Assembly: GCF_003970865.1 (NCBI RefSeq) | Contig: NZ_RXLZ01000006.1 | Span: forward strand, 1 to 64,000 | From: Stenotrophomonas maltophilia | Lineage (GTDB): Bacteria > Pseudomonadota > Gammaproteobacteria > Xanthomonadales > Xanthomonadaceae | Length of the DNA: 64,000 nucleotides | Reading direction: 5' to 3' | Shown here: positions 7,383-29,500 of the stretch, piece by piece | Numbering within the stretch: the stretch's first letter is position 1 | Layout: the number at the start of each line of letters is the position of its first letter | The notes under the pieces: model-generated | What the model was told of the DNA's origin: nothing | The model's database searches: none | Seen by the model: only the letters and a program-made list of their open reading frames with translations | Position numbers and translations under genes: made by a program

Positions 7383-7738
7383 CCCTGTTCTCCTTCCTGG
7401 ACGAACACAGCGCCGGCGGGAACGAGAACGCGGAGGTGTTCCCCGCGCCATGCTTCGGATCGTCCCTGGTCCGGAATGCGGCAGTGCCACATGCCGCTTT
7501 TATCGTTGAGGACGCTTACATATTCAAGTGTGGAGACGCGGAACCGATCACAGATTCAAGCATCCGTAACGATTCAGCGGACCGCGCCCTTTCCCCATGA
7601 CTTCCTGCACAGGGAGTCGGTGTTATACCTCACTACATTACCAGCACGACCTGTCGCGAGGTCGGCAGGCTGCGGCACTCCGCTGCAGACCTGACCCATC
7701 GGAAGGGCTGGCACGCGTCACGGCCCAGGGGAATGGCA
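7383..7738. other. Divergent intergenic region, RHS and hydrolase
   Basis: 356 nt between two divergent genes, which must contain the promoters of both the RHS gene and the hydrolase. I see a short inverted repeat near 7648-7668 (GACCTGTCGCGAGGTC) but no operator or RNA that I can name. Confidence 0.4.
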
Positions 7739-9390: not shown

Positions 9391-9460
9391 TCTCACATTG
9401 ACCGGTTTTAGCGATTGGTTGTCATTGTAGCGAAATTCGCCGTTGCGGCCGATCACTAGC

Positions 9461-11431
9461 ATGGCCCGCATGCACTTCCCCACGTCTTTCCGTCCCCACG
9501 TATTCCAAGCATTTGCCCGGTTGAAAAGCCCCGCCCCCAGGACCGACCAGGAGGCGGTGCTGTTCTCGCTCAAATGCCTGCTCGCCGCGTCGCTGGGGCT
9601 GTATGTCTCTCTAAGGATCGGCCTGAATCGCCCGTTCTGGGTGATCGGCACGGTCTATCTGGTGTCGCAGCCCCTTTCCGGGGCAACACTGAGCCGCGGC
9701 CTGTTCCGCCTGCTCGGTACCGTGGGCGGGGCCATCGCCACCGTTGCGCTGGTGCCACGCTTCGCCAATGCGCCGCTGGTGCTGAGCGCCGCGCTCGCCA
9801 CGTGGATGGCGCTGTGCCTGTACCTGGCGATGCTCGACCGCACGCCACGTGCGTACGCGTTCCTGCTGGCCGGCTATACCACCAGCCTGATCGGGTTTCC
9901 TGCGGTGATGGTGCCGGGAGAGGTGTTCACCATCGCCATCACGCGCGTGCAGGAAATCGCCATCGGCATCCTGGCCGCAACGCTGGTACATGGGCTGGTG
10001 CTGCCGCGCCGGGTCTCGATGCGCGTGCACGCACGAGTTGCTGCCGTGCTGGAAGATGCGGAACGATGGACACGCGACATGCGCGCCAGTGCATCGGACA
10101 CGGTGCTGGCGACGGACCGCTCAAAAGTAGCAGCCGACCTGCTCGAACTGCATGTGCTGTCGATCCACCTGCCCTTCGACAGCGCCCACGGCGTGGCCCA
10201 GGTGCAGATCCTGCGTGCCCTGCATGACCGGATGCTGGACGTACTGATGCTGTCCAGCGCGGTGGAAGATTCCATCGCCCGGCTGCGTTCACCGCAGGCC
10301 GGCACAATGGATGCAAGCGGCTGGCGCGATCTGCTGCAGGCCAGCCTCGCCGCGCAACGGGCCGAACTCGACCTCGCCCACGCCGACTGCCGCGTGCTGC
10401 AGGCACAACTGCACACTGCCCGCCCCGATTGGCGCCTGCATGTGCCTGACCGTCTTGCGCGGAATGTGCAGGGCGCAGTGATTCACCGGGATCACAGGAA
10501 CGCCGCGCGCAGCGCACTGGGGGCGTTCGTAGGCATCCTGCTGAGCTGCGTGCTGTGGATCATTACGGGCTGGTCGGACGGCGCCACGGCGGTGTCCATC
10601 ATCGGCACTGCATGCGTCCTGTTCGGCACCCTCGAAGCACCGGCACCACACGTCACGCGCTATCTGGTGGGATCGTGCATCGGCGTTGCCGTCGGCCTGG
10701 TCTACGGTCTGCTGATCTTCCCGGCGCTGTCCGATTTCGTCGGCCTGATTGCCGCGCTCGCGCCGGTGCTGCTGCTGTGCGGATCGTTCCTGGCCCGGCC
10801 GCCCTTCATCATGGCCGCCCTGGGCGTGGTACTGACCTTCCCGCTCATCGCAGGCCTGGGTGCGACCAATACGGTCAACATCGTCGGCGCACTCAACAAC
10901 AGCATTGCGTTGTTCGTCGGTACGACAATGGCACTGTGCAGCATGCAGTTGTTCCAGACCGCCGATGCGGGCCGCAACCGCGCACGGTTGGAGCGTTCGA
11001 TCCGTCGGGACATCGCACGACATGCCGCCGGCCAAGGTGATGTGACCCGCGCCTGGCTCAGCCGCATGCTGGATCGAATCGGGCTGCTCGCTCCCAGGTT
11101 GCAGGGCCGTTCCAGTGCGGCACACGACCTGCGGGCATTGTTTGCGGACGTTCGTGCGGCACGTGCATCCAGCCAACTCCGTGCGCTGGAAAAGCGGCTG
11201 CACAACCCGCAGGTCCGGGCGCTTCATGCGGTGCTGATCGAACGCATCGCTGCACATTTCAGGGTTCGCGCCCACTCGGCACGCAGTGTCGACACCCATC
11301 TTCTGGAACTGCTGGACCGCATGCGCGAGGCAGCGGCGGCCAGCAGCGGGGCTGATCAGGGGCATCTGTCGCACCTGCTCTGCGGGTTGCGCCGCGACCT
11401 GCTGGCATCCCCGCTTACCCATCGGCACTGA
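9461..11431 (+). CDS. FUSC-family inner-membrane exporter (AaeB-like)
   Basis: Predicted 656 residues. It has two transmembrane clusters (about 30-185 and 350-495), each followed by a soluble helical region, the duplicated architecture of fusaric-acid-resistance/AaeB-type pumps. Typical features are the first cluster with GLNRPFWVIGTVYLVSQP and the second with ALGVVLTFPLIAGLGATNT. The start is uncertain between ATG 9461 and ATG 9470; neither has a strong ribosome site. It heads a four-gene operon (DUF1656 protein 4 nt downstream, then HlyD-type adaptor and outer-membrane factor). It probably exports hydroxylated aromatic acids or similar toxic anions by proton antiport; the substrate is inferred from the family. 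Confidence 0.88.
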   Translation: MARMHFPTSFRPHVFQAFARLKSPAPRTDQEAVLFSLKCLLAASLGLYVSLRIGLNRPFWVIGTVYLVSQPLSGATLSRGLFRLLGTVGGAIATVALVPRFANAPLVLSAALATWMALCLYLAMLDRTPRAYAFLLAGYTTSLIGFPAVMVPGEVFTIAITRVQEIAIGILAATLVHGLVLPRRVSMRVHARVAAVLEDAERWTRDMRASASDTVLATDRSKVAADLLELHVLSIHLPFDSAHGVAQVQILRALHDRMLDVLMLSSAVEDSIARLRSPQAGTMDASGWRDLLQASLAAQRAELDLAHADCRVLQAQLHTARPDWRLHVPDRLARNVQGAVIHRDHRNAARSALGAFVGILLSCVLWIITGWSDGATAVSIIGTACVLFGTLEAPAPHVTRYLVGSCIGVAVGLVYGLLIFPALSDFVGLIAALAPVLLLCGSFLARPPFIMAALGVVLTFPLIAGLGATNTVNIVGALNNSIALFVGTTMALCSMQLFQTADAGRNRARLERSIRRDIARHAAGQGDVTRAWLSRMLDRIGLLAPRLQGRSSAAHDLRALFADVRAARASSQLRALEKRLHNPQVRALHAVLIERIAAHFRVRAHSARSVDTHLLELLDRMREAAAASSGADQGHLSHLLCGLRRDLLASPLTHRH

Positions 11432-11435
11432 CCTC

Positions 11436-11645
11436 ATGCTTTCTGACCTTTCCATCGATGGCGTGCTGATCCCCGGCCTGCTCGCCGTGGCCGCCGCCGC
11501 GCTGTTGCTGTCGATGCTGACCTCACGTCTGCTCGCCAGCCTCGGCCTGTACCGGTTGTTCGCCGCGCGGCCCTTGGTGGGCCTGTCCCTGTTCGTGATC
11601 CTGGCGGAGCTGATGATCCGGCTCTCGCCCCTGCTCGAGAAATGA
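11436..11645 (+). CDS. DUF1656 small membrane protein (AaeX-like)
   Basis: Predicted 69 residues with two hydrophobic helices (about 8-28 and 44-62) and the family opening LSDLSIDGVLIPG. Members of DUF1656, such as AaeX, always sit between the FUSC pump and the HlyD adaptor, as here, with 4 nt to the upstream stop and 1 nt to the downstream start. The role in the pump is unknown; it is probably an accessory subunit in the inner membrane. Confidence 0.9.
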   Translation: MLSDLSIDGVLIPGLLAVAAAALLLSMLTSRLLASLGLYRLFAARPLVGLSLFVILAELMIRLSPLLEK

Positions 11646-11646
11646 A

Positions 11647-12531
11647 ATGAAACACCTGCTTGCTGTCACCGGACGCTGGAGCGCAACGCTGGCCGTGTGT
11701 GCGCTCGCCGCCATTGCCGCGCTCTCCCTCTGGAATCGTTACGAAATGCGCCCGTGGACGCGGGATGGGCGGGTGCGCGCCGATGTGGTGCGCGTTGCGT
11801 CGGACATGGGGGGACTGGTCACCCAGGTGCTGGTGCACGACAACCAGCGGGTCAGCGCCGGACAACTGCTGCTGGTGCTGGATCAACCGCGCTTCGCTGC
11901 CGCGCTTGAGAAGGCCGACGCAGCGGTCAGCAGCGCACGCGCGACGCTGGCGCTGGCCCGCCGCGAATCGACGCGGGACAACGCACTTGGCAACCTGGTC
12001 GCCTCGGAAACACGCGAACGCAATGCCGCCAAGGTCGATACCGAGCTGGCCGCGCTGGCGCAGGCACGGGCCGAACAGCGCGTTGCCCAGCTCAACGTGC
12101 AACGCACCGAGGTACGCGCGACCACCGATGGCATCATCACCAACCTGGACCTGCACGCGGGCGACTACCTGCAACCCGGTGCGCAGGCGCTGGCGCTGAT
12201 CGACACCCGCAGCCTGCGTATCGAGGGCTACTTCGAGGAAACCAAACTGGCCTGCATCACCGAGGGCGATGCCGCCGTGGCCCGGCTGATGGGCGACGAC
12301 CACGACGTCCGCGGACACGTGGACACCATCGCCGCCGGCATTGCCGACGATCAGCGCTCAAGCACACACAACCTGCTGCCCGCCGTGGCGCCGACCTATA
12401 CCTGGGTGAGGCTGGCACAGCGCATCCCGGTACGCATCCGTATCGATGATGCTCCACCGGATACGCGTCTGATCGTGGGTCGCACTGCAAATGTGACCAT
12501 CACGCCCTCGGCACAGGGAGCCTGCGAGTGA
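11647..12531 (+). CDS. HlyD-family membrane fusion protein (AaeA-like)
   Basis: Predicted 294 residues. It has a single N-terminal membrane anchor (about 8-28), the biotinyl-lipoyl half motif DMGGLVTQVLVHDNQRV (about 53-69), a coiled-coil hairpin (about 80-155), the second lipoyl half TDGIITNLDLHAGDYL and a beta-barrel domain with TRSLRIEGYFEETKL. It would bridge the FUSC pump to the outer-membrane factor in the periplasm. The gene follows the DUF1656 gene by 1 nt, and its stop overlaps the start of the next gene by 4 nt, so translation is coupled. Confidence 0.92.
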   Translation: MKHLLAVTGRWSATLAVCALAAIAALSLWNRYEMRPWTRDGRVRADVVRVASDMGGLVTQVLVHDNQRVSAGQLLLVLDQPRFAAALEKADAAVSSARATLALARRESTRDNALGNLVASETRERNAAKVDTELAALAQARAEQRVAQLNVQRTEVRATTDGIITNLDLHAGDYLQPGAQALALIDTRSLRIEGYFEETKLACITEGDAAVARLMGDDHDVRGHVDTIAAGIADDQRSSTHNLLPAVAPTYTWVRLAQRIPVRIRIDDAPPDTRLIVGRTANVTITPSAQGACE

Positions 12532-13964
12532 GCTTGCGAACAGTGCGAGGTGGGCTGCTTGCCCTGCTGCTGCCCATGACGGCCTGCGTGTCCGGCCCCG
12601 ACTATCACCTGCCTGCGAATGCCGTCGCAGCCTCCCCCCGGGCGGCGCAGGCGTTCGTCTCGGGCCAGGAGGCATCGTTCAGCCACGACGCGCCACCGGA
12701 TCGATGGTGGCAACTGTATGGCGACCCCCAGCTTGACGCCTACGTACGCGAAGCACTGGCGGCCAATACCGACCTGCGCGCCGCCGATGCCAACCTTCGG
12801 CGCGCCAGCGCAACCGTGCTGGAGTATCGCGCACGCGGTGCCGTGCAGGCCGACGTGGATGCATCGGGCACGCTCGCCCATGCCGGTGGTTACACCCACG
12901 CGTCGGCCGCGCCGCAGTCCTATGCGCTGGGTCTTCACCTCGCCTATCCGCTGGACCTCGCAGGCGGCATCCGCCGCGGCATCGAAGCCGCCAACGCGAA
13001 CGCGGAGGCGGTTGCTGCGGCACGGGACCAGGTCCGCGTGGTCGTCGCTGCTGCCGTCACCCGTGCCTATCTGCAGGTGTGCACCAGCAATCACACGCTC
13101 GCCGCAACCCGGCAGGTGCTGGCGATACAGCGCGCCACGCTGGAGGCAACCCGACGCCTGGCTGCGGGCGGGCGCGGAACGGACTTCGATGTCAGCCGTG
13201 CCGGTGCAGCCGTCAATCGCAGCGCGGCGGCGATACCGCACCTGCTGGCGGAACGGCAGGCCTCACTGTTCGAACTGGCCGCACTGATGGGCAAAGTCCC
13301 GGCAGACTATCCCAGGGAAGCAGAAGGGTGCCCACAGCCCCCTGAGCTGGAGCAAGCATTGCCGGTCGGTGACGGCTGGCAGCTGCTCCAGCGGCGCCCT
13401 GACGTACGCGCAGCCGAACGCAGCCTGGCCGCCGCGACTGCAATGATCGGTGTCGAGACGGCGGGACTCTATCCGCAGATCACTCTGGGTGCCTCTTCGG
13501 GCGTGGCTGGCACACCGGCGCATCTGCTGTCAGCCGACAGCTTCGGTGCGAGTATCGGCCCCGTGCTGTCATGGCACTGGCCCAACCGCCGCGCGGCCAA
13601 GGCCCGCATCGCAGCGGCGGGTGCCAATACAGATACTGCTCTCGCTTCCTTTGACGGCATCGTGCTGCAGGCACTGCGCCAGACCGAGACCGCGCTTTCT
13701 GCCTGCACGCAGGAGCTTGAACGCGAGCGCAGCCTGGCGCAGGCGCGTGGGGACGCAGCGCGGGCCGCTGGGCAGGCACAGCAGCTCTACCGTTTCGGCA
13801 GGATCGATTTTCTCGACGTGCTTTCGGCGCAGGCCGCGCTGGCAGATGCCGAGTCCGCGTTGGCCGCCTCGCGCGCGCAGCGCATTGATCGCCAGATGGA
13901 TCTGTTCCTGTCCCTGGGGGGTGGCTGGACCGCGAGCAGTCCGGCCGAGGGTGTGCCGCGCTGA
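12528..13964 (+). CDS. Outer-membrane efflux lipoprotein (NodT/OprM-type)
   Basis: Predicted 478 residues. It starts with GTG at 12528, inside the 4-nt overlap with the adaptor gene. The signal peptide ends in the lipobox MTAC (Cys20), followed by VSGPDY, the usual opening of NodT-family factors. Two repeats of the outer-membrane efflux domain follow (about 60-250 and 270-465), with the typical W-W-x-L-x-D-P-x-L (RWWQLYGDPQLD) and L-x-x-R-P-D-V-R (LLQRRPDVRAAE) motifs. It completes the tripartite export system; an outer-membrane component encoded in the same operon is an addition relative to E. coli aaeXAB, which relies on TolC. Confidence 0.93.
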   Translation: MSLRTVRGGLLALLLPMTACVSGPDYHLPANAVAASPRAAQAFVSGQEASFSHDAPPDRWWQLYGDPQLDAYVREALAANTDLRAADANLRRASATVLEYRARGAVQADVDASGTLAHAGGYTHASAAPQSYALGLHLAYPLDLAGGIRRGIEAANANAEAVAAARDQVRVVVAAAVTRAYLQVCTSNHTLAATRQVLAIQRATLEATRRLAAGGRGTDFDVSRAGAAVNRSAAAIPHLLAERQASLFELAALMGKVPADYPREAEGCPQPPELEQALPVGDGWQLLQRRPDVRAAERSLAAATAMIGVETAGLYPQITLGASSGVAGTPAHLLSADSFGASIGPVLSWHWPNRRAAKARIAAAGANTDTALASFDGIVLQALRQTETALSACTQELERERSLAQARGDAARAAGQAQQLYRFGRIDFLDVLSAQAALADAESALAASRAQRIDRQMDLFLSLGGGWTASSPAEGVPR

Positions 13965-15970: not shown

Positions 15971-16891
15971 TTACTGCGCCGCCAGGGCGAAATCCAGACC
16001 CGCACACACCGCCGCCACCTGGGCGTCGTTGCATTCCTGCGGGTTGGTGCGCGGGCTGTCCGGGTAGACCTCGGTGGTGGTGGCAAAGCGTGCGTCGGTG
16101 AAGCCGGCGCAGGCGCCGATCGAACGCGACTCGCCCCAGACCACGCCCGGCGACTGCAATGGCAGGCCGACCAGGTTGCCCTCGGCGTCGGCCGGGGCGA
16201 TATGGGTGACCGGGGCGACGGCGGTGATCAATGCCTTCTGGAATTCGGCCTGCGGATCTTCGCTGTTGCCGATCACGTAGAAGCCATCCGGAATGGTGTC
16301 GCGCTCGAACGGCTTGCCGTCGCGGGCGCAGCGGGCCGGATCGAACTCCTGCAGGTCGCTGTCTGTGGTCTCGTGCAGGTCCAGGTGCACCAGCAGTTTC
16401 GGCTTGCGCTCGGCAACCCAGGCCATCAGCGCGGCCGCTTCCTCGATCTGGCCGCCGTCACGGAAACTGCGGTTCGGGTCGATGGCATCCGGGTTCCAGC
16501 GCTGGATGCGCTCGTAGCCCCACGGGCTGACGCACGGCGCCACGATCAGGTTCAGCCGGCCCAGGTAGCGCTCGGCCTGCTGTTCCAGGAACTGCAGGGC
16601 GCCATGCACGCCGCTGGTCTCGTAGCCATGCACGCCACCGGTGATCAGCGCGGTCGGCAGGGCCGGGTTCCAGTCGTGGTTGACCACGGCGAACAGCGGG
16701 TAATGGTCCGGCGCATAGTCCAGCTGGCCGTACTGGATCACGTCGAAGCTGTCGTCCAGGCGCTCAAGGGCGGCCACCACGTCGTCGTGATAGCTGCGCT
16801 GGCGCTGCTGGCGGGCCCGCCACTGTGCGCGTTCCGCGTCGCCCCAGGGCTGTCCAGGGGTGCCGATCGGGTAGAACTGCGCAACAGTCAT
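15971..16891 (-). CDS. M14-family zinc carboxypeptidase-like protein
   Basis: Predicted 306 residues; ATG 16891 has GGAG 6 nt upstream. The M14 fold is shown by the zinc site H-G-Y-E (GGVHGYETSG, about residue 90), the second zinc ligand in LLVHLDLHETTDSD (about 172), the N-R-S-F motif (DPNRSF) for substrate carboxylate, and the late glutamate in TTEVYPD (about 278) as general base. There is no signal peptide, so it is probably cytoplasmic. It resembles succinylglutamate desuccinylase/AspA-like and M14 single-domain peptidases; specificity unknown. It converges with dgkA. Confidence 0.85.
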   Translation of the reverse strand: MTVAQFYPIGTPGQPWGDAERAQWRARQQRQRSYHDDVVAALERLDDSFDVIQYGQLDYAPDHYPLFAVVNHDWNPALPTALITGGVHGYETSGVHGALQFLEQQAERYLGRLNLIVAPCVSPWGYERIQRWNPDAIDPNRSFRDGGQIEEAAALMAWVAERKPKLLVHLDLHETTDSDLQEFDPARCARDGKPFERDTIPDGFYVIGNSEDPQAEFQKALITAVAPVTHIAPADAEGNLVGLPLQSPGVVWGESRSIGACAGFTDARFATTTEVYPDSPRTNPQECNDAQVAAVCAGLDFALAAQ

Positions 16892-17036
16892 TGGGTACTC
16901 CAAGGGTCGAACGGGATGGGTGCAGCCGGTCATTCTAAGCCTTGTCGCGCCTGCGGGTCCCCTCCCCCGGCCCGGCCTTCATCCAGGCCGGGTCATCTGG
17001 TTGTAAAATCAACGGTTTTTGGCCCCTCACCCCTTG

Positions 17037-17690
17037 ATGGCGAACGCAGCGCAGCCGGTCCTGGGTGGACCGGAGTTCCTCCGCCTGCTCGCCCGTCTCA
17101 GCGACGGCGCGATGCCGGCCACCAGTCCCGCCCTGACCGATCGCCTCGGCCAGTGGGTGGACTGGAGCCGTGCCGTGGCCCTGTCCGGAGCGCTCGGCGG
17201 ACGCCTGCCCGAGCCCGGTGAAGCCGCCGAAGCGGTCCAGGATGTGCTGGCCGACTGCGCCCAGGCGCACGCCAGCCTGCTGGCCTCGATCCGTGAGGAT
17301 GCCGAGGCCGAGCGCCTGCTGGACCTGGCCGAAGCCGCCGCTGCACCCAACTTTGCCTCGCTGCGCCAGCGCTATCGGGTGCTGCAGCAGGCCATCCAGA
17401 CCGCCACTGGGCGCCTGCGCGGCCGCCTGCGCGACCAGCTGGTGCAGGTTTCGCCCGAGCTGGCGCGGCTGGCCGAGGTCGATGCGGTGATGGAACAGAC
17501 CCTCACCCCGCGCGAGCACAGCCTGCTGGCCACGGCGCCGGCAGTGCTCGGCGCCCGTTTTGAACGCGTGCACGGCCAGCCCGGTTGGCGCGCGGCCTTC
17601 CGCCATGACATGCGCACCCTGCTGCTCGCCGAACTGCAGCTGCGCTTCCACCCGATCGAAGGGCTGCAAGACGCCCTGCGCTCCCACTGA
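17037..17690 (+). CDS. DUF3348 protein, first gene of stator cassette
   Basis: Predicted 217-residue all-helical soluble protein (ATG 17037, no strong ribosome site). It is rich in Ala, Leu, Arg and Glu, with segments such as LRQRYRVLQQAIQ and LRGRLRDQLVQVSPELARLAEVD that would form long helices, and a C-terminal RHDMRTLLLAELQLRFHPIEGL. I identify it as DUF3348 partly from this pattern and partly from its fixed neighbours. It ends 10 nt before the DUF802 gene. No enzyme motif is visible; a cytoplasmic partner or adaptor of the membrane complex encoded downstream is the best inference. Confidence 0.8.
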   Translation: MANAAQPVLGGPEFLRLLARLSDGAMPATSPALTDRLGQWVDWSRAVALSGALGGRLPEPGEAAEAVQDVLADCAQAHASLLASIREDAEAERLLDLAEAAAAPNFASLRQRYRVLQQAIQTATGRLRGRLRDQLVQVSPELARLAEVDAVMEQTLTPREHSLLATAPAVLGARFERVHGQPGWRAAFRHDMRTLLLAELQLRFHPIEGLQDALRSH

Positions 17691-17700
17691 CCGGAACACC

Positions 17701-19965
17701 ATGTCCAGAACTGCTTTCCATGTCGTTGTTTTCCTTGTCGGCCTGCTGGCCGTGTGCTGGATCGGCATTGGCTACGTTTCGGTGCATCCGCTGGGTGCAG
17801 CGGTGGCGGCGATCATCGCGGCCTGCTACATCGCCGGTGGCGTGGAGCTGTACCGCTACCGCCAGGCCAGCAACGGCCTGCGCGCCGCACTGAACGACCT
17901 GTCCAGCGCGAAGGAAAGCCTCGCCCCCTGGCTGGAGCGCGTGCCGGTGGGCCTGCGCAACGCCGTGCGACTGCGCGTGGAAGGCGAGCGCACCGCCCTG
18001 CCCGCACCGATACTGACCCCGTACCTGGTCGGCCTGCTGGTGCTGCTGGGCATGCTCGGCACCCTGCTGGGCATGATGGACACGCTGCGTGGCACCGGCC
18101 TGGCCCTGCAGAGCGCGACCGACATGGCCGCGATCCGCGGCTCGCTGGCGTCGCCGGTGCAGGGCCTGGCGGTGGCATTCGGCACCTCGATCGCCGGCGT
18201 GGCCAGCTCGGCCATGCTCGGCCTGCTGGCAGCGCTGCTGCGTCGTGACCGCCTGCAGGCCGTACAGCAGCTGGACCGCGCCATTGCCGGCGACCTGCAT
18301 CCGTACTCGCAGGCCTGGCAGCGCGCCGAATCGCTGCGCCTGCTGCAGGCACAGTCCGCGGCGCTGCCGGCGCTGGTCGACCGCCTGCAAGCGATGACCA
18401 GCGCGTTCGAACAACACAGTTCGTCTGTCAATGAGCGCCTGCTGGCCGGCCAGGCCGAGTTCCTGACCCAGAGCCAGGCCCTGCTGGAACGCCTGGCGGT
18501 GTCGCTGCAGCAATCGCTGCGCGAAGGTGCCGAAGCCAGCGCCGCCGCCATCGGTGGTGCGCTGCAGCCGATGACCGAGGCCACGCTGGCTGGCCTGGCC
18601 CGTCACGGCGAAGCACTGCACGCCCGCGTCGAGCAAGCCGTGCAGCAGCAGCTGGCCGGCCTGAGCGACGGTTTCGAGCGCAGCCGCGTCGCCACCGAGG
18701 CCAGCTGGGCCAAGGTGGTGAGTGAACAGACCCAGGCACAGCAGGCACTGGTGGGCGATCTGCGCCAGCACCTGCAGGCCTTCAGCGATGGCCAGGCCAC
18801 GCATGCCGAAGCGCTGGTCGCACGTATCGGCGAGCGCCTGCAGGCCGACGCACAGGGCAATGCAGGGGCCTTGCGCGCCGCCGCCGAACAGCAGCAGGCG
18901 CTGAACAGCGCGCTGGTCGAGCGCCAGCAGCAGGCGCTGCTCGCAGCCGGTCAGCAGCTGGACGAGCATGCGCAGGCGTTGCTGCAGGCACTGGAACAGC
19001 GCCACAGCGCCAGCCAGTCGCTGCTGCAGGACCACGAACAGCAGCGCTCGCAGGATTGGCAGGCCGCGCAGGCCGCCGCCGCAACCGCGCATGCCGAACT
19101 GCAGGCCAGCCTGGACAGCCGCGAACAGCAGCGCCAGGCGCACTGGGACGCGGTCAGCGCCGAGCTGCAGCAGGCACACGCCACGCTGCAGGCGCAGCTG
19201 CAGGCCGGCGACGAACAGCGCCTGCAGCGCTGGAGCGATGCCTTGCAGCATGTTTCCACCGACCTGGCCGAGCGCCTGCAGGCCAACGGCGAACGCCTGG
19301 CCGCGCAGCAGCAGCAGGTCTGCGACACGCTGGCGGCCACCGCGCAGCAGATCGGCGAGAACGGTCGCGCACAGGCCAGCGCCACGCTGGCCGAAGTGTC
19401 TACCCTGCTGCAGACCGCCGCCGCCGCACCCAAGGCCGCTGCCGATGTCATCAACGAGCTGCGCAGCACGCTCTCGGAGAGCCTGGTGCGGGACAACGCG
19501 ATGCTGGAAGAACGTGGCCGCCTGCTGGCCACCGTGCAGACCCTGCTGGATGCAATCAACCACGCCTCGCACGAACAGCGCACGGCGATGGACGCGCTGG
19601 TCGGCGGTTCCGCCGAGCTGCTGGAACGCGTCGGCAGCCGCTTCACCGACCATATCGCCGCCGAGACCGGCAAGCTGGATGGCATTGCCGCGGCGCTCAA
19701 TGGCAGCGCCGGTGAAGTGGGCCAGTTGGCCGGCACCTTCGGCGACGCGGTTGCGCAGTTCGGCAGCGCCTCCACCGAGCTGTCCGGCCGCCTGGAACAG
19801 ATCGGCGGTGCGCTGGATGCCTCGCTGGCGCGTAGCGACGAGCAGCTGGCCTACTACGTGGCGCAGGCGCGCGAGGTGGTCGACCTCAGCCTGCTGTCGC
19901 AGAAGCAGGTGATGGAAGAACTGCAGCAGCTGGCCACGCGCCGCGGCAAGGCCGGTAGCGCATGA
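17701..19965 (+). CDS. DUF802 protein: MotA/ZorA-like channel with long coiled coil
   Basis: Predicted 754 residues. Two N-terminal membrane helices (about 6-47) are followed by a short cytoplasmic part. A second helix pair (about 103-125 and 155-185) carries MotA/TolQ/ExbB-like glycine-rich signatures (LGMLGTLLGMMDTLRG and QGLAVAFGTSIAGVASSAM). After about residue 190 the rest is an uninterrupted Gln/Ala/Leu/Glu-rich helical tail of about 550 residues, ending near residues 690-754. This architecture, four membrane helices then a very long tail, is that of ZorA in Zorya phage defence rather than of flagellar MotA or TolQ. The next gene overlaps by 4 nt and encodes the matching OmpA/MotB-like partner. 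The Pfam-level identity (DUF802) is from memory. Confidence 0.85.
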   Translation: MSRTAFHVVVFLVGLLAVCWIGIGYVSVHPLGAAVAAIIAACYIAGGVELYRYRQASNGLRAALNDLSSAKESLAPWLERVPVGLRNAVRLRVEGERTALPAPILTPYLVGLLVLLGMLGTLLGMMDTLRGTGLALQSATDMAAIRGSLASPVQGLAVAFGTSIAGVASSAMLGLLAALLRRDRLQAVQQLDRAIAGDLHPYSQAWQRAESLRLLQAQSAALPALVDRLQAMTSAFEQHSSSVNERLLAGQAEFLTQSQALLERLAVSLQQSLREGAEASAAAIGGALQPMTEATLAGLARHGEALHARVEQAVQQQLAGLSDGFERSRVATEASWAKVVSEQTQAQQALVGDLRQHLQAFSDGQATHAEALVARIGERLQADAQGNAGALRAAAEQQQALNSALVERQQQALLAAGQQLDEHAQALLQALEQRHSASQSLLQDHEQQRSQDWQAAQAAAATAHAELQASLDSREQQRQAHWDAVSAELQQAHATLQAQLQAGDEQRLQRWSDALQHVSTDLAERLQANGERLAAQQQQVCDTLAATAQQIGENGRAQASATLAEVSTLLQTAAAAPKAAADVINELRSTLSESLVRDNAMLEERGRLLATVQTLLDAINHASHEQRTAMDALVGGSAELLERVGSRFTDHIAAETGKLDGIAAALNGSAGEVGQLAGTFGDAVAQFGSASTELSGRLEQIGGALDASLARSDEQLAYYVAQAREVVDLSLLSQKQVMEELQQLATRRGKAGSA

Positions 19966-20600
19966 GCGACGAGCTGGAGGTCGATGGCGGGTCGCACGCC
20001 CCGATCTGGGCCGCCTTCGGCGACCTGATGTCGGTGCTGCTGGGCGCGTTCGTGCTGATCCTGGTCGGCGTGGTTGCCGTGCAGCTGGAACTGTCGCAGC
20101 GGCTGGACCAGGAAGTGAAGCAGCGCCAGGCCGAAGCCAAGCGCCTGCAGACATTGGAGCAGGCACTGGCGGGCCCGTTGGCCGCCGGTCGGGTGACGCT
20201 GGTGGATGGCCGCATCGGCATCAGCGGCAGCGTGCTGTTCGCGCTGAACTCCGACCAGCTGCAGCCGGAAGGCCAGGAGCTGCTGCGCAGCCTGGCCGCG
20301 CCGCTGGCCGCCTACCTGGGCAGTCGCGAAGAGATCCTGATGGTCAGTGGCTTCACCGATGACGCACCGGTGCGGGAAGGCAACCGCCGCTTTGCCGACA
20401 ACTGGGAGCTGTCGGCACAGCGGTCGCTGACCGTGACCCGCACCCTGATCACCGATGGCGTACCGGCCGACGCCGTGTTCGCCGCTGCGTTCGGCAGCGA
20501 GCAGCCGGTCAGTTCCAATGCAAGCGAAGACGGCCGCGCACGCAACCGCCGCGTGGAGATCGCGCCGATTCCCAAGCCCAAGGCTCCGGATGCCAAGTAA
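19962..20600 (+). CDS. MotB/ZorB-like OmpA-domain stator protein
   Basis: Predicted 212 residues. One N-terminal membrane helix (about 14-40) holds FGDLMSVLLGAFVLIL, with Asp21 placed like the proton-carrying Asp of MotB and ZorB plug helices. A short coiled coil (LDQEVKQRQAEAKRLQTLEQ) leads to an OmpA-type peptidoglycan-binding domain (about 85-205). This contains GFTDDAPV and GRARNRRVEI, whose Asp and Arg contact diaminopimelate in known members. The ATGA overlap with the upstream channel gene implies coupled production in fixed ratio. It should anchor the channel to the cell wall. Confidence 0.9.
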   Translation: MSDELEVDGGSHAPIWAAFGDLMSVLLGAFVLILVGVVAVQLELSQRLDQEVKQRQAEAKRLQTLEQALAGPLAAGRVTLVDGRIGISGSVLFALNSDQLQPEGQELLRSLAAPLAAYLGSREEILMVSGFTDDAPVREGNRRFADNWELSAQRSLTVTRTLITDGVPADAVFAAAFGSEQPVSSNASEDGRARNRRVEIAPIPKPKAPDAK

Positions 20601-20967
20601 GCCACCAGCGCTCGAAGGCCTGCGCGCACTGGTGCGCGACCTCGATGCGGGGTCGCGCTCGCTGCCGCATTACCCGCAGGTGCCCATGCTGCAGCAGGTG
20701 CAGCGCGAATGGTCGGAGCTGCGCAGCGAACTGCAGGTGCGCCGCTCCCTGCGCACCGAAGCCCCGGCCGACGGCGGCCCGCTGAACTCGGCGGTGCTGG
20801 TGCAACGCATGCTGGACACGATGCAGGCGACCAGCCCCGGCTACCTGCGCCACTTCATCGACTACGTGGACACCCTGTCCTGGCTGCAGGCGCTGCAGGA
20901 TGGTGCCGCCAGCGGCGGTGATACCGCAAAGCCGAAGCGCACGCGCAAGCCGCGCAACGCGGGTTGA
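20590..20967 (+). CDS. DUF2894-like protein, last gene of stator cassette
   Basis: Predicted 125 residues, starting at ATG 20590 and overlapping the OmpA-domain gene by 11 nt. The N-terminus (PPALEGLRALVRDLDAGS) and the middle (VQREWSELRSELQVRRSLR; HFIDYVDTLSWLQALQ) are helical, and the C-terminus is a basic Lys/Arg tail (KPKRTRKPR). I assign DUF2894 from its place in the DUF3348-DUF802-OmpA-DUF2894 order and general pattern. Role unknown; the basic tail could contact nucleic acid or acidic protein. Confidence 0.75.
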   Translation: MPSKPPALEGLRALVRDLDAGSRSLPHYPQVPMLQQVQREWSELRSELQVRRSLRTEAPADGGPLNSAVLVQRMLDTMQATSPGYLRHFIDYVDTLSWLQALQDGAASGGDTAKPKRTRKPRNAG

Positions 20968-21098: not shown

Positions 21099-21280
21099 AA
21101 TGCATGCGTCGGCATGCCACGCGTATAGCGGTGTCACCAGACAGTCATCTGTCTAGCGCACCATTTTCACGTTGACCCACGGCGCCCGCAGCGCCTGCGG
21201 TCGCATCGGCTGTCTCCCCTTTTGAACTCCATGAGCTCCGCACCCATGCGGTGGCTCGTGCCTGCCTGAGTGTCCGTAAC

Positions 21281-23599
21281 ATGACGAAGACTTTGTTGGC
21301 CGCCGCGCTGTCGATCGCGCTCGCTCCCGCGGCCTGGGCGCAGGATGCTGCCCCGACCTCCAGCACGCCCTCCGCCACCACCCTCGATGCGGTCTCGGTG
21401 ATCGGCAGCGGTGAAGCCCGCCAGGTGCAGCGCATCACCCGCGAGAACCTCGACATCCTGCCGCCGGGTACCAGCCTGCAGAAGACCCTGAACCTGCTGC
21501 CGGGCGTCAATGCACAGTCGGCCGATGCGCTGGGCACCAACGAGCAGTCGATGACGCTCAGCCTGCGCGGCTTCAACTCCACCCGTCTCGGTTACACGCT
21601 CGACGGCGTGCCGCTGGGCGATGGTGCGTACAACAACTACAACGGCCTGACCATCAACCGTGCGCTGATCAGCGAGAACATGGCCGGCGCGGAACTGGCG
21701 GTGGGCATCGGCAGCCTCGGCACGCCGTCCACCAGCAACCTCGGCGGCACCATCTCCTATACCTCCGACCGCCCGGCCCAGGAACTCGGCGGCCGCGTGG
21801 TGCAGACCTTCGGCAGCGATGCCAACCGCCGCACCTTCGTGCGTGTGGACAGCGGCGAGTACAACGGTTTCTCCGGCTACGTCTCCGGCATGAATGCCGT
21901 CTCCGATCTGTGGAACGACCAGACCGCCTACAACAAATCCACCACCAAACAGTTCAATGCCAAGGGCGTGTGGAACTTCGGCCGCGGCCAGATCACCGGC
22001 TTCGTCGATACCTCGCGCACCACCCAGGCGGACTACTTCTACCTGTCCAAGGACGAGATGTCGCGTGGCCTCGGCTGGGACTGGGGCGGCTACGCGCCGG
22101 ACTGGAACAAGGCCGTGGCCAAGGCCTACTGCAATACCGCCAGCCTCAACGCGAAGAAGTGCGACAGCAGCGGTCCGGACAAGGATGCCGATGGTGCCTT
22201 CACCGCCGGGCAGATCCTGCGCGATGACAACCTCTACTACCTGGCCGGCGACTTCTTCCTGGCCGATGGCTTCAGCCTGCGTGCCCTGGCCTACCACCAC
22301 GATGACCGCGGCGAAGGTCACAACTGGAACAGCGGCGCCTGGTCGAACAAGGGCACGGCGCAGGAGATCCCGATCATCTTCCGCAACACCATCTACACCA
22401 TCGACCGCGATGGCGGCACGCTGTCGTTCGACTGGGAGCTGGGTGCACATCGCATCGAAGGCGGCGTCTGGTACGAGCGCAACACCAGCAGCGCCGAGCG
22501 CTACCAGACCGCCGTGGATGGCCCGCGCGACCTGAGTGGCATGAATACCCTGCCCTCCGACGTCGGCGTGTTCGCCCAGCGCACGCGTTGGAAGACCCAT
22601 CAGTTCTTCCTGAAAGACACCTGGCGCCTGCTTGATGATCGCCTGACGCTGGAGTTCGGCGCCAAGAGCCCGCATGCCACCTCCGATGCACAAGCACTAC
22701 CGGGCGACGCGAAGACGCCGATCTCGCCGACCTCGAACAACCAGTTCGCCACCGGCTCGCTGAAGGCCAGCAAGAATTTCCTGCCCAGCATCGGCGCCAA
22801 CTTCCGCCTGGCCGAGCACCACGAAGTGTTCGCCAGCTACGCCGAGAACATCGCCATGTTCCAGGGCGGGTTCAAGCTGGGCCCGCAGGCGGTCAGCCAG
22901 GCCACCTGGAATGCGCAGGGCAACCTGAAGCCGGAGGAGTCCCGCTCGCTCGAAGCCGGCTACCGCTTCGTCACCGATACCCTGCAGGCCTCGATCGCCG
23001 CCTACGACGTGCGCTTCGACAACCGCCTGCTGCAGTACAACCCCTGTGACTCGCGTCAGCCGGTCGGCCCGACCTGCGGCAACCGCTTCTACAACGTGGG
23101 CGGCGTCGACAGCCGCGGTGCCGAGCTGACCGTGCTGTGGACCCCGAACGAGCACTTCAGCTGGTACACCTCGGCCTCGCTGAACCGTTCGACCTACGCC
23201 TCCAACTACGTGCAGGCCGGTGTGGAGCAGCAGATCAAGGGCAAGATCCAGACCGATACGCCCAAGCAGCTGCTGGCCACCGAGATCAGCTGGCGTGACA
23301 ACGGCTGGTTCGCCAGCCTGCGTGGCAAGTACACCGGCGAACGCTTCTACACCTACACCAACGACCAGGGCTTCGGCGGCTTCACCGTGTTCGATCTGGC
23401 CGGTGGCTATGACTTCGGCCAGGTCGGCTTCGCCAAGGGCATGCGCCTGTCGTTCAACGTGACCAACCTGACCAACAAGCGCTACGCCAGCAACCTGGAC
23501 TCGAGCGTGTTCGCGCCCAGCGACCCGGCCGGCAAGCTGTATGTGTTCCATGCCTCGGCACCGCGCCAGGTGTTCGGTACGATCGACCTTCGCTTCTGA
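21281..23599 (+). CDS. TonB-dependent receptor beside esterase-like phytase
   Basis: Predicted 772-residue outer-membrane receptor. The Sec signal (MTKTLLAAALSIALAPAAWA) precedes the plug domain (about 35-160; SMTLSLRGFNSTRLGYTLDG) and a 22-strand barrel ending in FGTIDLRF with the terminal Phe. ATG 21281 is chosen because it starts the signal peptide; upstream in-frame codons add a non-signal stretch. The next gene, 21 nt downstream of the stop, encodes a secreted esterase-like phytase domain protein, so the receptor probably imports a ligand that the enzyme processes, such as a phosphorylated inositol or its metal complex. Substrate is inferred. Confidence 0.92.
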   Translation: MTKTLLAAALSIALAPAAWAQDAAPTSSTPSATTLDAVSVIGSGEARQVQRITRENLDILPPGTSLQKTLNLLPGVNAQSADALGTNEQSMTLSLRGFNSTRLGYTLDGVPLGDGAYNNYNGLTINRALISENMAGAELAVGIGSLGTPSTSNLGGTISYTSDRPAQELGGRVVQTFGSDANRRTFVRVDSGEYNGFSGYVSGMNAVSDLWNDQTAYNKSTTKQFNAKGVWNFGRGQITGFVDTSRTTQADYFYLSKDEMSRGLGWDWGGYAPDWNKAVAKAYCNTASLNAKKCDSSGPDKDADGAFTAGQILRDDNLYYLAGDFFLADGFSLRALAYHHDDRGEGHNWNSGAWSNKGTAQEIPIIFRNTIYTIDRDGGTLSFDWELGAHRIEGGVWYERNTSSAERYQTAVDGPRDLSGMNTLPSDVGVFAQRTRWKTHQFFLKDTWRLLDDRLTLEFGAKSPHATSDAQALPGDAKTPISPTSNNQFATGSLKASKNFLPSIGANFRLAEHHEVFASYAENIAMFQGGFKLGPQAVSQATWNAQGNLKPEESRSLEAGYRFVTDTLQASIAAYDVRFDNRLLQYNPCDSRQPVGPTCGNRFYNVGGVDSRGAELTVLWTPNEHFSWYTSASLNRSTYASNYVQAGVEQQIKGKIQTDTPKQLLATEISWRDNGWFASLRGKYTGERFYTYTNDQGFGGFTVFDLAGGYDFGQVGFAKGMRLSFNVTNLTNKRYASNLDSSVFAPSDPAGKLYVFHASAPRQVFGTIDLRF

Positions 23600-23620
23600 T
23601 TGACCGCCCGGAGTCCACCG

Positions 23621-25078
23621 ATGCTCACGACCGCCCTGCTGCTGGCCACCCTCTCCGCCAGCGGATACTCCGCGCCGCATGAGGCGACGGGCGCACCGCC
23701 GCGCACCCTGCAGCTGGGCGGTCGCACCTATGTGGACAAGGGCCTGGTCGCCGCCGGGCGGCTACCGGCGGGCACGGTGGACTTCCTGGGCGACACGCTG
23801 GGCTCGTTCTCGTCGCTGGCGGTGCAGCCCGGTACCTGGAAGCGCACTGCCAACGGCTACGAAGGCGTGCTGTGGACCCTGCCCGACCGCGGCCGCAACG
23901 ACCCCGAGGCCGGCCTGTTCTACGACTACACCGGCCGCGTGGAGCGCATGCAGCTGCGCATCGACATCTCCCCGGGCAAGCCTGCGCTTGGCACGCTGAC
24001 CATGGTGCCCGACAAGGGCGTGGTGCTGAAGGACTTCAACGGCCAGCCGTTCACCGGTGCCGACCCGGGTGACCACACGGTCACCCAGCGCGAGGTGGTG
24101 CTGCCCTCGCCGGCCAGCGGCGCAGGCGCGGGCAAGGTCTCGCTGGATGCCGAGTCGCTGCAGTTCACCGCCGATGGCCACTTCTATATCGGCGACGAGT
24201 ACACCGCAAACGTCTACTACTTCGATGCGCAGGGCCAGCTGCAGGGTGTGATCGTGGCACCGCCCGCGATCCGTCCGCAGCGCGATGGCAAACCAGCGTT
24301 CGGTTCGCTGGCGCCACCGCAGACCGGCCGCCGCAACAACCAGGGCGTGGAAGGCATGGGCCTGTCACCCGACGGCACCCGCCTGTTCGTGGCGCTGCAG
24401 AGCGCCACGCTGCAGGACAGCTCACAGGGCAACGCGGCTGGCCGCATCAACACCCGCGTACTGGTCTACGACGTGACGGCCTCGCCGACGCCACAGCAGC
24501 CGATCGGCCATTACGTGATGGCCCTGCCCGCCTACGCCCACGACGGCAAGGGCAAGCTGGACCGCACCGCCGCGCAGAGCGAGCTGCGCGCACTGGGCGA
24601 CCATCGCTTCCTGCTGCTGGCCCGGGATGGCAATGGGCTGGGCAAGGACGGCGATGACCCGATCGTCTACAAGTCGGTGCTGCTGGTGGATGTGGCCGAT
24701 GCCAGCAATCTGGCAGGCAGCGCCTATGAAACCGGCACCACCTCGGTGCTGGCCGATGCGGCGGGCACCGTGTTGAAGGACGGCATCGTACCCGCACGCA
24801 GCGACGAACTGCTGAACCTGCTCGACCGCCCGCAGCTCGCACGTGCCGGGCTGGATCTGGACACGAAGCACGGCCCGCGTGCCGGACTGCTCTCGGAAAA
24901 GTGGGAAGCCATGGACGTGCTGCCGGCACTGGACCCGCAGCACCCGAACGACGTACTGCTGCTGATCGGCAACGACAACGACTTCATCGCCCGCCACTGC
25001 CGCATGCAGGGCCAGGCCTGCGACAGCGCCTACGACAACGACAACCGCGTGCTGGTCTACCGCCTGACCCTGCCCTGA
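23621..25078 (+). CDS. Exported esterase-like phytase domain protein
   Basis: Predicted 485 residues; ATG 23621 has GGAG 8 nt upstream. A short hydrophobic N-terminus (LTTALLLATLSASGYSA) serves as signal peptide. The rest is a beta-propeller-type domain with repeated Asp-rich strands (LPDRGRNDPEAGLFYDY, FYIGDEYTANVYYFD, LLIGNDNDFI) that I assign to the esterase-like activity of phytase family (PF13449). It is co-transcribed with the TonB receptor before it. Probably periplasmic or surface phosphoesterase; catalytic residues are not established for the family as far as I know. Confidence 0.85.
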   Translation: MLTTALLLATLSASGYSAPHEATGAPPRTLQLGGRTYVDKGLVAAGRLPAGTVDFLGDTLGSFSSLAVQPGTWKRTANGYEGVLWTLPDRGRNDPEAGLFYDYTGRVERMQLRIDISPGKPALGTLTMVPDKGVVLKDFNGQPFTGADPGDHTVTQREVVLPSPASGAGAGKVSLDAESLQFTADGHFYIGDEYTANVYYFDAQGQLQGVIVAPPAIRPQRDGKPAFGSLAPPQTGRRNNQGVEGMGLSPDGTRLFVALQSATLQDSSQGNAAGRINTRVLVYDVTASPTPQQPIGHYVMALPAYAHDGKGKLDRTAAQSELRALGDHRFLLLARDGNGLGKDGDDPIVYKSVLLVDVADASNLAGSAYETGTTSVLADAAGTVLKDGIVPARSDELLNLLDRPQLARAGLDLDTKHGPRAGLLSEKWEAMDVLPALDPQHPNDVLLLIGNDNDFIARHCRMQGQACDSAYDNDNRVLVYRLTLP

Positions 25079-25770: not shown

Positions 25771-26529
25771 TCAGGCGCGCAGGGTGGCGCCGCCGTCGAC
25801 GTAGAGGTCGCTCATTGCCACGTGCCCGGCCTGCTCGGAGAGCAGGAACATCACCGAGTGCGCGATGTCCTCCGGGGTGGCGAGTTTGCGCAGTGGAATG
25901 CCGGCCTTGTAGGTCTCCAGGTTGCCGGCGATTACCCGCTCGGCACCGCGTTCGTCCTGCCACATGCCGGTCTGCATCGGGGTCAGCGTTGAGCCGGGGG
26001 CGACGATGTTGCAGCGGATGCCCAGCGGCGCCAGTTCCAACCCAAGGCAGCGGGTGAACATGGTGGCCGCGGCCTTGGACGCGGCATACGCCGCCATGCC
26101 GTGCCGCGGCACGCCGGCCGCATTCGAGCTTACGGTAACGATTGCGCCCTGCCGGCGCGGCGACATCACCCGCGCCAGTGCACGACCGACATGGAACACG
26201 CCATCGGCATTGACCGCGAACACCCGGCGCCAGTCGTCGTCGCCGGTTTCGGTCACGCCGCCCACATGCAGCACACCGGCCACGCTGGCGGCCAGCGCGA
26301 TTGGCCCGATGCTGGACTCGACTTGGTCCACCAGGGCGTCCACCGCGGCGCTGTCGGTTACATCGAGTGCGAACGACGTCACCCGGGTATCTGATACTCG
26401 CGGCACCTCGCGATCGGTCGCCACCACCGTGCAGCCGGCCTCTGCCAACAACCGAACCAGTGCCTCTCCGATACCACCGGAGGCACCGGTCACCAACGCT
26501 ACGCGGCGTTCAAAACCGGTCAACTGCAT
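25771..26529 (-). CDS. entA: 2,3-dihydro-2,3-dihydroxybenzoate dehydrogenase
   Basis: Predicted 252-residue short-chain dehydrogenase that oxidises the isochorismatase product to 2,3-dihydroxybenzoate with NAD+. The Rossmann motif is [10 protein letters not shown] (about 14-23). The catalytic Ser/Tyr/Lys set is in VSSNAAG and YAASKAA (about 137-160), and the C-terminus [11 protein letters not shown] is typical. It is the last gene of the siderophore operon; its ATG at 26529 lies 10 nt inside the end of entF, so translation is coupled. Identity as EntA rather than a general SDR rests on operon context. Confidence 0.93.
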
Positions 26530-29500
26530 GTTGCGATCTCCTGTTGCTCGTCCCATTGGCGCAACCGCGCCGACAACCACGGTGCCAGCTGCGCCACCGC
26601 ATCGCGGCCGGTCAGTTCGGCGTGCAGGAACGGCAGTTCCAGTGCCTGCACCCTGCGCGCGTGGGTCCGCCACAACGCCGACTGCAGCTGTGGCCGCGCC
26701 TGGTGATCCCGGCCCGCGCGGACGTGCACCAGCGTGCCGTCGAACGGTTGGTGGATGTGTTCGCGGATCAGTCGATTGGTGCCGGTCACCGCGCGCACCA
26801 CCCCATCGAGCACCACATCCGGCAGGCTGCCGAGTGCACTACCGCCACGTCGCAGGAACGCCAGAATGCGATCACGGCTGTCCAGTTCCGGATGCGCATC
26901 CGGATCGTGGCCGGCAATCGCCAGCAGTGCCCGCAATGCAGCGATGGCATCGGGTTCTGGTTCGGCCCGCCAGCACTCGCTGGGATAGGCGTCCAGCAGT
27001 ACCAGCTCACCGACGTCGCGGCCGATCTCATGCAGGCGCACCGCCATCGCCTGGGCGAGGATGCCGCCCACCGACCAGCCCAGCAGATGCACCGGCCCCT
27101 TCGGCTGCAGTGCGACCACGCGCTGTACGTAGTCGTTGGCCATCGCCTCGATGCTGCTTGGCAGCGGCTGCCGCGCATCCAGTGCCGGCGACTGCAGGCC
27201 ATACACCGGGCGTGCCGGCTGCAGTGCCCTGGCCAGGGTGCGGTAGTTCCAGACGATGCCACCGGCCGGGTGCAGCACGAACAGCGGCGTGGGCCCGGCA
27301 GCGTCAGTCGCGGCCAGCGCGATCACTGGCCCCAGTGCGTGATCGGCCAGCGCGGGCGGCTCGGCAATGCGAACCGCCAGCGCGGCCACGGTGGGCTGCG
27401 CGAACAAGGCACCCAGACCCAGATCGCAGCGCCAGCGCTGCTCGATGGCCAGCAGCAGGTGCACCGCCGACAGCGAGTCACCGCCGAGACTGAAGAAGTC
27501 CGCATCCACCGCCACCGGCGCCTCACGCCCAAGCGCCTGTGCGAACAGCAACGCCAGCTCCTGTTCCAACGGCGTGCGCGGCGCCAAGCCGGCAACTTCA
27601 AGTTGCGGTGGCTTCGGCAACGCGTTGCGGTCGAGCTTGCCGTTGGCGGTCACCGGCCAGTGGTCCACGCCGACAAACGCCGAGGGCACCATGTAGTCCG
27701 GCACGCGCGTGGCCAGGTGGCTGCGCAGCATCACAGCATCGGCTAGCGCGGTCGGCACATACGCCACCAGACGCGCTTCGCCGGGAGCATCCTGGCGCAG
27801 CAGCACTTCCACCCGCTCCATGCCAGGCAGTTCGCGTAGTGCCGCCTCGATCTCGCCAAGTTCGATGCGCAGGCCGCGCAGTTTCACCTGGTGGTCGCTG
27901 CGGCCCAGGTACTCCACCGCACCATCGCGGCGCCAACGGGCTACGTCGCCGGTACGGTAGATACGCTCGTCCGCCAGGAAAGGATCGGCAAGGAAGCGTT
28001 CGGCGGTCAGGTCATCGCGACCGAGATAGCCACGTGCCAGTTGCACGCCACCCAGGTACAGGTCACCGGCCACGCCTGCCGGCACCGGCTGCATCCGGGC
28101 GTCCAGCACGTACAGGCGGGTGTTCCAGACCGGGAACCCGATCGGCACTGGCCGCGAGCGGTCCTGCGTCGACGCCGGCCAGTAGCTGACATCCACCGCA
28201 GCTTCGGTCGGGCCATACAGGTTGTGCAGCTCTGCGTGCACGCGCGTGTGGAAACGGTCGCGCAATGAAGCGTCCAGCGCCTCACCGCTGGTGAACACCC
28301 GGCGCAGCTGCAACCCGGCCGAGGCCGGCGCGGCGAGGAAGGCATCGAGCATCGACGGCACGAAATGCGCCGTGGTGATGCCATGCCCACGGATCAAGCG
28401 CGCCAGTTCAGTGGGATCGCGATGCGCGTCCGGCCCGGCGACCACCAGGGTGGCCCCGCACAGCAGCGGCAGGAAGAACTCCCAGACCGACACATCGAAG
28501 GTTGCCGGGGTCTTCTGCAGCACGCGGTCATCGGCGCGGATGCCGTAGTGCTCGCGCATCCACAGCAGGCGGTTGACGATGGCACGGTGCTCGATGACCA
28601 CGCCCTTGGGCTCGCCGGTCGAACCGGAGGTATAGATCACATAGGCCGCATCGCTGGGCGCAGGATCGGCCCACGGCGCGGCGAAGCTCAGCGCCGTCCA
28701 CTGCTCCGGCGCGAGCATCGGTACGCCAGCCATGCGCGCCGAAACCTCGGACGCAGCCAGTACGCACACCGGCTGCGCCGAGGCGAGGATACGTGCCAGC
28801 CGCTCGTCAGGATGGGCAAGGTCCACCGGCAGGTAGGCGGCTCCGGCGCGCAGCACCGCCAGCAGCGCGATCACCAGCTCCAGCGAGCGCGGCAATGCCA
28901 CAGCCACCACGCTGCCCGGGCCGACATCCATCGCCCGCAGCTGTGCCGCCAGCGCGAAACTGCGCGCTTCCAGCGCTGCGTAATCCAAAGCAGCGTCACC
29001 GAACACCAGCGCAGGCGCGTGCGGGTCCCGATCCATGCCCTGCTGCAGCAGCTCGACCAGGGTGGTCTCCGGCAGCGCGTGCGCGGTGGCATTGAAACCA
29101 TGCAGCACCTGCTGCGCCTCCACGGGCGTCGCCAGAGGCACGGCTGCGATATCGTCAGCCTGCAGTGCCGCCGACACGAAATGCAGCAGCCGCGCCGCGT
29201 GCGCTTCGACATCCTCGCGACTGTACAGCGCGGGATTGGCCTCGATCTCCAGGTCCAGCAGGTGCTGGCCGTCGCCACGGAAGCCCAGCGTCAGATCATC
29301 CACCGGCCCGGTGCACAGCACCTCCAGCGTGGCCTGCACGCCGGTCAGCGCCAGCGGCTTGTAGAACGGCTGTACATTCACCAGCGGGCCGTGCAGGCGC
29401 TGCTGCGCGCCGACCAGGCCCAGATCCCGGCGCAGCTGCTCGCCGCGGTAGCGGCCGTGCTTGCGGCCCTGGCTGAGCTGGCGACCCAGGCCGCGCGTAA

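Follow-up and report, generated by a model that had tools for sequence, protein, structure and literature searches.

The question raised by this locus is whether a set of stator-like genes in Stenotrophomonas DNA represents a new machine or a known defence system and, in the latter case, whether it behaves as a roaming module or as an ordinary part of the chromosome. The window, i.e., the whole stretch of 64,000 nt that was analysed, carries four same-strand ORFs at 17037–20967 (+) according to the ORF list, just where a sequence-only reading had placed four tightly coupled genes. The features of this cassette are the following:

17037..17690, + strand: DUF3348 gene; 217 aa, all-helical; Pfam PF11828 (E 1.6e-58), PADLOC PDLC00658 (E 2.4e-76)
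17701..19965, + strand: zorA of type III; 754 aa; PADLOC PDLC00647 (E 0, 1077.7 bits, residues 1–753)
19351..19962, + strand: part of zorA coding for the conserved distal tail (about residues 551–754), a putative docking site, from alignment conservation
19962..20600, + strand: zorB of type III; 212 aa, one membrane helix; Pfam PF00691 (E 7.2e-18), PADLOC PDLC00651 (E 2.3e-115)
20590..20967, + strand: DUF2894 gene; 125 aa; Pfam PF11445 (E 4.2e-25), PADLOC PDLC00654 (E 1.7e-72)

The listed ORF of zorA begins with a TTG at 17560, the in-frame ATG being at 17701. The start of the DUF2894 gene was set at 20590; its listed ORF begins at 20455, within zorB, and the PF11445 and PDLC00654 scores given above are those of the ORF from 20455. 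The zorA and zorB genes overlap by 4 nt, and zorB and the DUF2894 gene by 11 nt. All four genes match the four PADLOC models dedicated to Zorya type III (E values from 1.7e-72 to 0). In the channel protein, Pfam gave a DUF802 match with an E value of 7.8e-7 and a MotA_ExbB match of 3.7e-4, which is under its cut-off. The nearest named loci come from Stenotrophomonas maltophilia and near species, with ZorB identities of up to 100% (99.5% in the comparison of close loci). Taken together, these sequence matches make it almost certain that the cassette is a Zorya type III system in a genome of the S. maltophilia group. This type was named and phage-tested in 2021 by Payne et al., and that report describes it as a zor gene pair flanked by DUF3348 and DUF2894 genes (PMC8565338). 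The cassette is therefore not a new kind of system, and the labels of "unknown function" and "new machine" given to it by the sequence-only reading have to be abandoned. As for nomenclature, the DUF3348 and DUF2894 proteins are called ZorF and ZorG, respectively, in papers and the labels are reversed in PADLOC-DB 2.0.0; moreover, the text of the 2021 paper prints "zorBC" pairs in passages where zorAB seems to be meant (PMC8565338).

The order and strand of all four genes were the same in 61/61 loci studied by tblastn (the window and 60 others picked by DUF3348 match), indicating that the cassette is not a chance arrangement and bearing out the coupling claimed earlier. When loci were found through ZorB, all four genes appeared in order in 73 of the 80 named loci (the best 80 of 541). 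Six of the seven exceptions are located at contig ends; in the seventh, L231, an intact DUF3348 gene had escaped the script. A fifth linked partner was also considered and rejected, as no ORF cluster outside the four genes was common to more than 17 of the 61 loci, and the commonest of these clusters resemble scattered paralogues by sequence (LysR-like and TonB-receptor-like).

Hydropathy analysis located the membrane segments of ZorA near residues 8–26, 30–48, 108–126, and 158–180. These four segments form a MotA/ExbB-like channel of about residues 1–230, which is followed by a tail of 524 residues containing 7% Pro/Gly and displaying a hydrophobic periodicity of 3.66 residues (power 3.39 vs. 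1.37 for the 99th percentile of shuffled sequences), in keeping with the long helical tail first noticed in the translation. This period is close to 11/3 and would suit a hendecad bundle. The tail is presumably on the cytoplasmic side. A profile built in this work matched the type I ZorA of structure 8vvn (8vvn_C, E 0.0016, residues 110–182), and in this match T121 and T162/S163 align with Thr/Ser residues of the 8vvn protein. The two pore motifs were present in 130/134 and 133/134 sequences, these 134 being the ones kept after dropping L135, L148, and the ZorA proteins of 600 aa or less. Regarding ZorB, the corresponding profile matched the type I protein 8vvn_B (E 8.1e-9), and also 8qyd_F (E 2e-7). 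Thus, both the PADLOC models and the profiles uphold the proposed kinship with ZorA and ZorB.

Residue 21 of the window ZorB, which had been singled out as a membrane Asp, is Asp in 141/141 ZorB sequences, coming from the 61 and 80 loci with some strains in both sets, so its conservation is confirmed. The protein has an OmpA-type domain whose peptidoglycan binding is predicted from the PF00691 match (E 7.2e-18) and from the conservation of the peptidoglycan-binding motifs SGFTD (136/141), DN..LSA.R (141/141), and NRRVE (139/141).

Conservation along ZorA was followed in an alignment of 59 of the 61 sequences, from which L135 and L148 were dropped. The mean modal identity is 0.74 in the membrane part (residues 1–225), the middle of the rod (residues 426–500, window numbering) is occupied in a fraction of only 0.09–0.60 of the sequences, and residues 551–750 reach again a mean modal identity of 0.74, with 25-residue blocks between 0.63 and 0.88. 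The distal tail is thus conserved as much as the channel, on the far side of a rod of variable length, the 134 sequences having total lengths of 652–1229 aa. Two fixed ends joined by a rod that is free to vary in length suggest, at the sequence level, a spacer that would link the motor to a docking site. We slightly favour the view that the distal tail is the site at which the DUF3348 and DUF2894 proteins would dock. The previous proposal that the tail passes a signal to these two proteins finds backing in this pattern, with docking itself as a candidate role. The zorA genes of L135 and L148 are apparently frameshifted or mis-started, the signs being a 451-nt gap to the DUF3348 gene and a 595-aa product whose gene is separated from zorB by 123 nt; the source genome of L148 is 85% complete. 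In addition, two genomes encode an extra protein (L064, G060:C1, ~431978–433501; L063, G079:C2, ~30701–31807) with a weak match to ZorA models, possibly another long-tailed stator; contamination of G079 is 10%.

The AlphaFold2 model of the DUF3348 protein is all helix (pLDDT 88.1, pTM 0.82), and that of the DUF2894 protein is helical with a poorly ordered end (pLDDT 77.1, pTM 0.45). No nuclease fold was recognised in these two predicted models, the fold searches giving nothing decisive. The C-terminal tail of the DUF2894 protein is usually, not universally, basic (net charge of +4 or more in 123/140 sequences), and it is conceivable, if rather doubtful, that this tail touches DNA. The window has a short form of the protein (125 aa), without the N-terminal domain, the median over the 61 loci being 216 aa. 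Such short forms (119–143 aa) were found in 8/61 loci, separate lineages among them (the window, L106, L107, L108, L124, L137, L147, and L148).

The genomic setting of the cassette was then considered. An M14-peptidase gene lies directly upstream in 12/12 loci of the S. maltophilia group and a TonB receptor gene downstream in 7/12 of them; in the genus as a whole (23 loci) the cassette occupies at least five settings, and the site differs between clades. Hence, of the two locations contemplated at the outset, a defence island or a fixed chromosomal site, the former did not hold (see below), and the latter held for the upstream neighbour of the 12 close loci and failed between clades. In the window, the TonB receptor forms with a phytase-like gene a pair at 21251–25078 that comes and goes (7/12) beside the fixed upstream neighbour, and the M14/AstE-like peptidase gene (15971–16933, −) recurs beyond the window, at ~69.7–70.6 kb of the same contig, as a second copy with 61% identity. 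The window also encodes an RHS-repeat protein of 1628 aa (2604–7490, −), a FUSC/HlyD/outer-membrane efflux gene set (9443–13964), a nonribosomal peptide synthetase with condensation, adenylation, carrier, and thioesterase domains together with a separate AMP-binding enzyme (26520–32948, −), perhaps a siderophore cluster, and an autotransporter with a pertactin-type match (44090–46531).

The nearest ORFs of the 61 cassettes, one a side, gave 115 proteins (61 upstream and 54 downstream were kept, neighbours of more than 900 aa being excluded). Their Pfam matches correspond to transporters, receptors, and enzymes. Six PADLOC families were matched by one gene each, namely RtcR-type regulator models, a homing-endonuclease model, and ZorB/MotB models, and no second recognisable defence system was present among these 115 neighbours of the 61 loci. 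Likewise, neither ZorC, ZorD, nor ZorE was detected among the same 115 ORFs at an E value of 1e-10, in agreement with the absence of these partners noted before. As a control, 33 ORFs beside nine type I loci matched 116 models, including type I/IV restriction and Zorya II; several of these models fall on one gene and some on ordinary genes (PDC-S08 on a 5′-nucleotidase, and RTasRmuC, the set containing an RmuC protein). This control is small, as it used 9/14 fetched loci chosen for a complete-looking operon ORF layout, and it took two genes a side where possible vs. one a side for type III. The type III cassettes studied here are outside defence islands.

In the S. maltophilia group, the median dN/dS values were 0.133 for the DUF3348 gene, 0.126 for zorA, 0.043 for zorB, and 0.107 for the DUF2894 gene, and those of four flanking genes were 0.173, 0.092, 0.054, and 0.120. 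The cassette evolves, then, like its flanking genes, under purifying selection.

As regards distribution, the type III ZorA model was matched in 88/91 Stenotrophomonas genomes (84/86 of those of good quality), the exceptions being G016 and G021, which are of good quality and sisters on the 60-genome rpoBC tree, and G070, which is 76% complete. DUF3348 was found in 87/91 genomes of the genus; in G030, which has no such match, a contig begins with zorA. The surplus matches to both families in the genus were weak or came from pieces of the same gene. By contrast with type III, the type I/II ZorA models gave no match above the curated cut-off in any of the 91 genomes (best type I match, E 1.3e-6), the type I cut-off being strict here, as it was passed by 2/370 genomes of the class. 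Beyond the genus, DUF3348 was present in 143/296 genomes of the family sample, in 17/46 genera, and in 24/397 genomes of the phylum sample (23 above the cut-off). Between genera, therefore, the distribution is patchy, and the 29/46 family genera without a match imply that the cassette is dispensable.

Descent was studied with trees of 61 cassettes and 60 rpoBC sets, 58 genomes being common to both. Within the genus, the ZorAB tree has 14 supported splits, of which 10 equal a supported rpoBC split and one is conflicting; the DUF3348 tree has nine (five equal, none conflicting) and the DUF2894 tree another nine (six equal, one conflicting). The quartet agreement of ZorAB with rpoBC within the genus was 0.858 vs. 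0.948 for rpoB–rpoC. Very probably, then, the cassette is core-like and mostly vertically inherited within Stenotrophomonas. Over all 58 genomes, 10/30 supported ZorAB splits conflict with rpoBC (5/21 in Xanthomonadales), size-matched rpoBC samples conflicting in 0–1 splits, and the quartet agreement outside the genus falls to 0.606 vs. 0.938 for rpoB–rpoC. These values make an older transfer of the cassette between genera likely as far as the trees can tell. The rpoB vs. rpoC control is itself noisy, with 3/25 conflicts in all genomes, 3/15 in Xanthomonadales, and 2/6 in the genus, and for this reason single split conflicts carry little weight.

Carriage on mobile elements was also searched. 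Of 72,556 plasmid records, 27 match the window ZorA, all of them of 366 kb or larger and belonging to Caballeronia, Paraburkholderia, Burkholderia, Cupriavidus, Variovorax, Azoarcus, and Aquabacterium. Carriage by phages was rejected: 12 phage records match ZorB at less than 60% identity, and the two that span at least 80% of its length do so at 28%. Viral contigs of IMG/VR were discarded as well, as 40 of the 41 loci obtained with the ZorB query begin no earlier than residue 51, and the sole full-length match (L308) has 27% identity. The phage and viral matches are distant OmpA/MotB-type proteins. Finally, the picture of a mobile defence-island module, which is a general habit of defence systems and does not define Zorya, did not fit the cassette, given its presence in 88/91 genomes of the genus and its 115 neighbours without a second recognisable defence system. 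The system itself is known; nevertheless, we found in the openly licensed literature neither its behaviour as an ordinary inherited chromosomal set, in place of a roaming module, nor any statement of type III as core in a genus or outside defence islands.

All these data can be best explained, with a probability of roughly 0.8, by a chromosomal Zorya type III system, mostly vertical in the genus, in which a motor would act through its tail end on adaptors. By analogy, five ZorA and two ZorB would make a rotary stator. An envelope disturbance such as phage injection may cause ZorB to grip the cell wall, ions would then cross at Asp21, and the ZorA ring and its tail would move. The conserved tail end would in turn act on the DUF3348 and DUF2894 proteins, which may be adaptors or blockers and not nucleases, the basic DUF2894 tail being perhaps on DNA. 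Types I and II require this Asp together with the tail and peptidoglycan binding, and their effectors act on DNA (PMC11890865). A defence role is supported by heterologous protection, the copy of S. nitritireducens having lowered the plaque formation of one or more phages in E. coli (PMC8565338).

This motor-to-adaptor model was ranked as the most likely, and its strongest rival is a stator for envelope maintenance, in which the cassette would be a housekeeping device for the sensing or repair of wall or membrane stress and the phage protection seen in E. coli a by-product. The near-universal presence and mostly vertical descent in the genus, the transporters, receptors, and enzymes found as neighbours, the purifying selection similar to that of the flanking genes, and the partners without a recognised nuclease fold would all suit such a function. 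So would the CRISPRi screen of Burkholderia cenocepacia K56-2, which has Zorya III and in which no predicted defence system altered fitness under phage Bcep176 (PMC12584637). Nevertheless, that screen used one productive phage, infection altered expression of the leading one or two genes in both the Zorya I and the Zorya III operon, and its authors offer other explanations, such as that the systems are inactive against Bcep176 or that the knock-down was too brief (PMC12584637). Furthermore, the S. nitritireducens system directly protects E. coli from phage (PMC8565338) and 29/46 sampled genera of the family do without the cassette, which argues for its dispensability. We regard this rival as possible but improbable. 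A related proposal is equally tentative: type III might be a motor that resides in Xanthomonadales and Burkholderiales to survey the envelope, not an acquired immunity, being retained by almost all tested species of the genus, passed on there with the chromosome, and free of nuclease partners, with wall damage signalled via the tail end to the two adaptors. If this were true, such a motor would have mobile relatives in the nuclease-armed Zorya I/II.

An abortive ion leak, in which the partners would gate ZorAB and infection would open the channel, depolarise the membrane, and stop the cell with no DNA effector, appears unlikely. Those who named type III propose that DUF3348 and DUF2894 regulate ZorAB and cite the idea of a proton channel in abortive infection (PMC8565338), and both partners are helical without a recognised catalytic fold. 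However, a simple leak would not call for such strong conservation of the tail end at a distance from the membrane, and the effectors of types I/II act on DNA. As for a TonB/ExbBD-like energiser of the receptor encoded directly downstream (21251–23599), it was rejected as extremely improbable, because neighbours are not conserved (the receptor adjoins in only 7/12 close loci, with TonB-receptor matches in only 9/115 nearest neighbours) and ZorB carries an OmpA-type peptidoglycan-binding domain.

The cassette has a wider meaning. Types I/II are understood as motors that deliver nucleases to DNA, and type III, without a recognised nuclease and here outside islands, yet with a copy that is protective in E. 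coli, offers a natural test of a motor without a nuclease. In addition, its core-like status in the genus warns against scoring type III as acquired immunity in surveys.

Comparison with known systems places the cassette closest to the Zorya type III of S. nitritireducens DSM 12575, with which it shares all four families and the flanking layout (PMC8565338). It differs from the published type III in its short DUF2894 protein (125 aa vs. a median of 216 in 61 loci), and defence by the window copy is predicted. It resembles type I (8vvn, Shewanella ANA-3) and type II in the MotA/ExbB channel with a long tail and in the MotB-like anchor with a membrane Asp and a peptidoglycan-binding domain; unlike them, it is without ZorC/ZorD or ZorE among its nearest neighbours, and the sampled type I loci adjoin restriction genes. 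With MotAB/PomAB, ExbBD, and TolQR it has in common the channel family (MotA_ExbB 3.7e-4, under the cut-off) and an OmpA-type anchor, but the 524-residue tail and the four-gene cassette with DUF3348 and DUF2894 set it apart from these stators, and the Zorya models match it far more strongly than the profile of that channel family.
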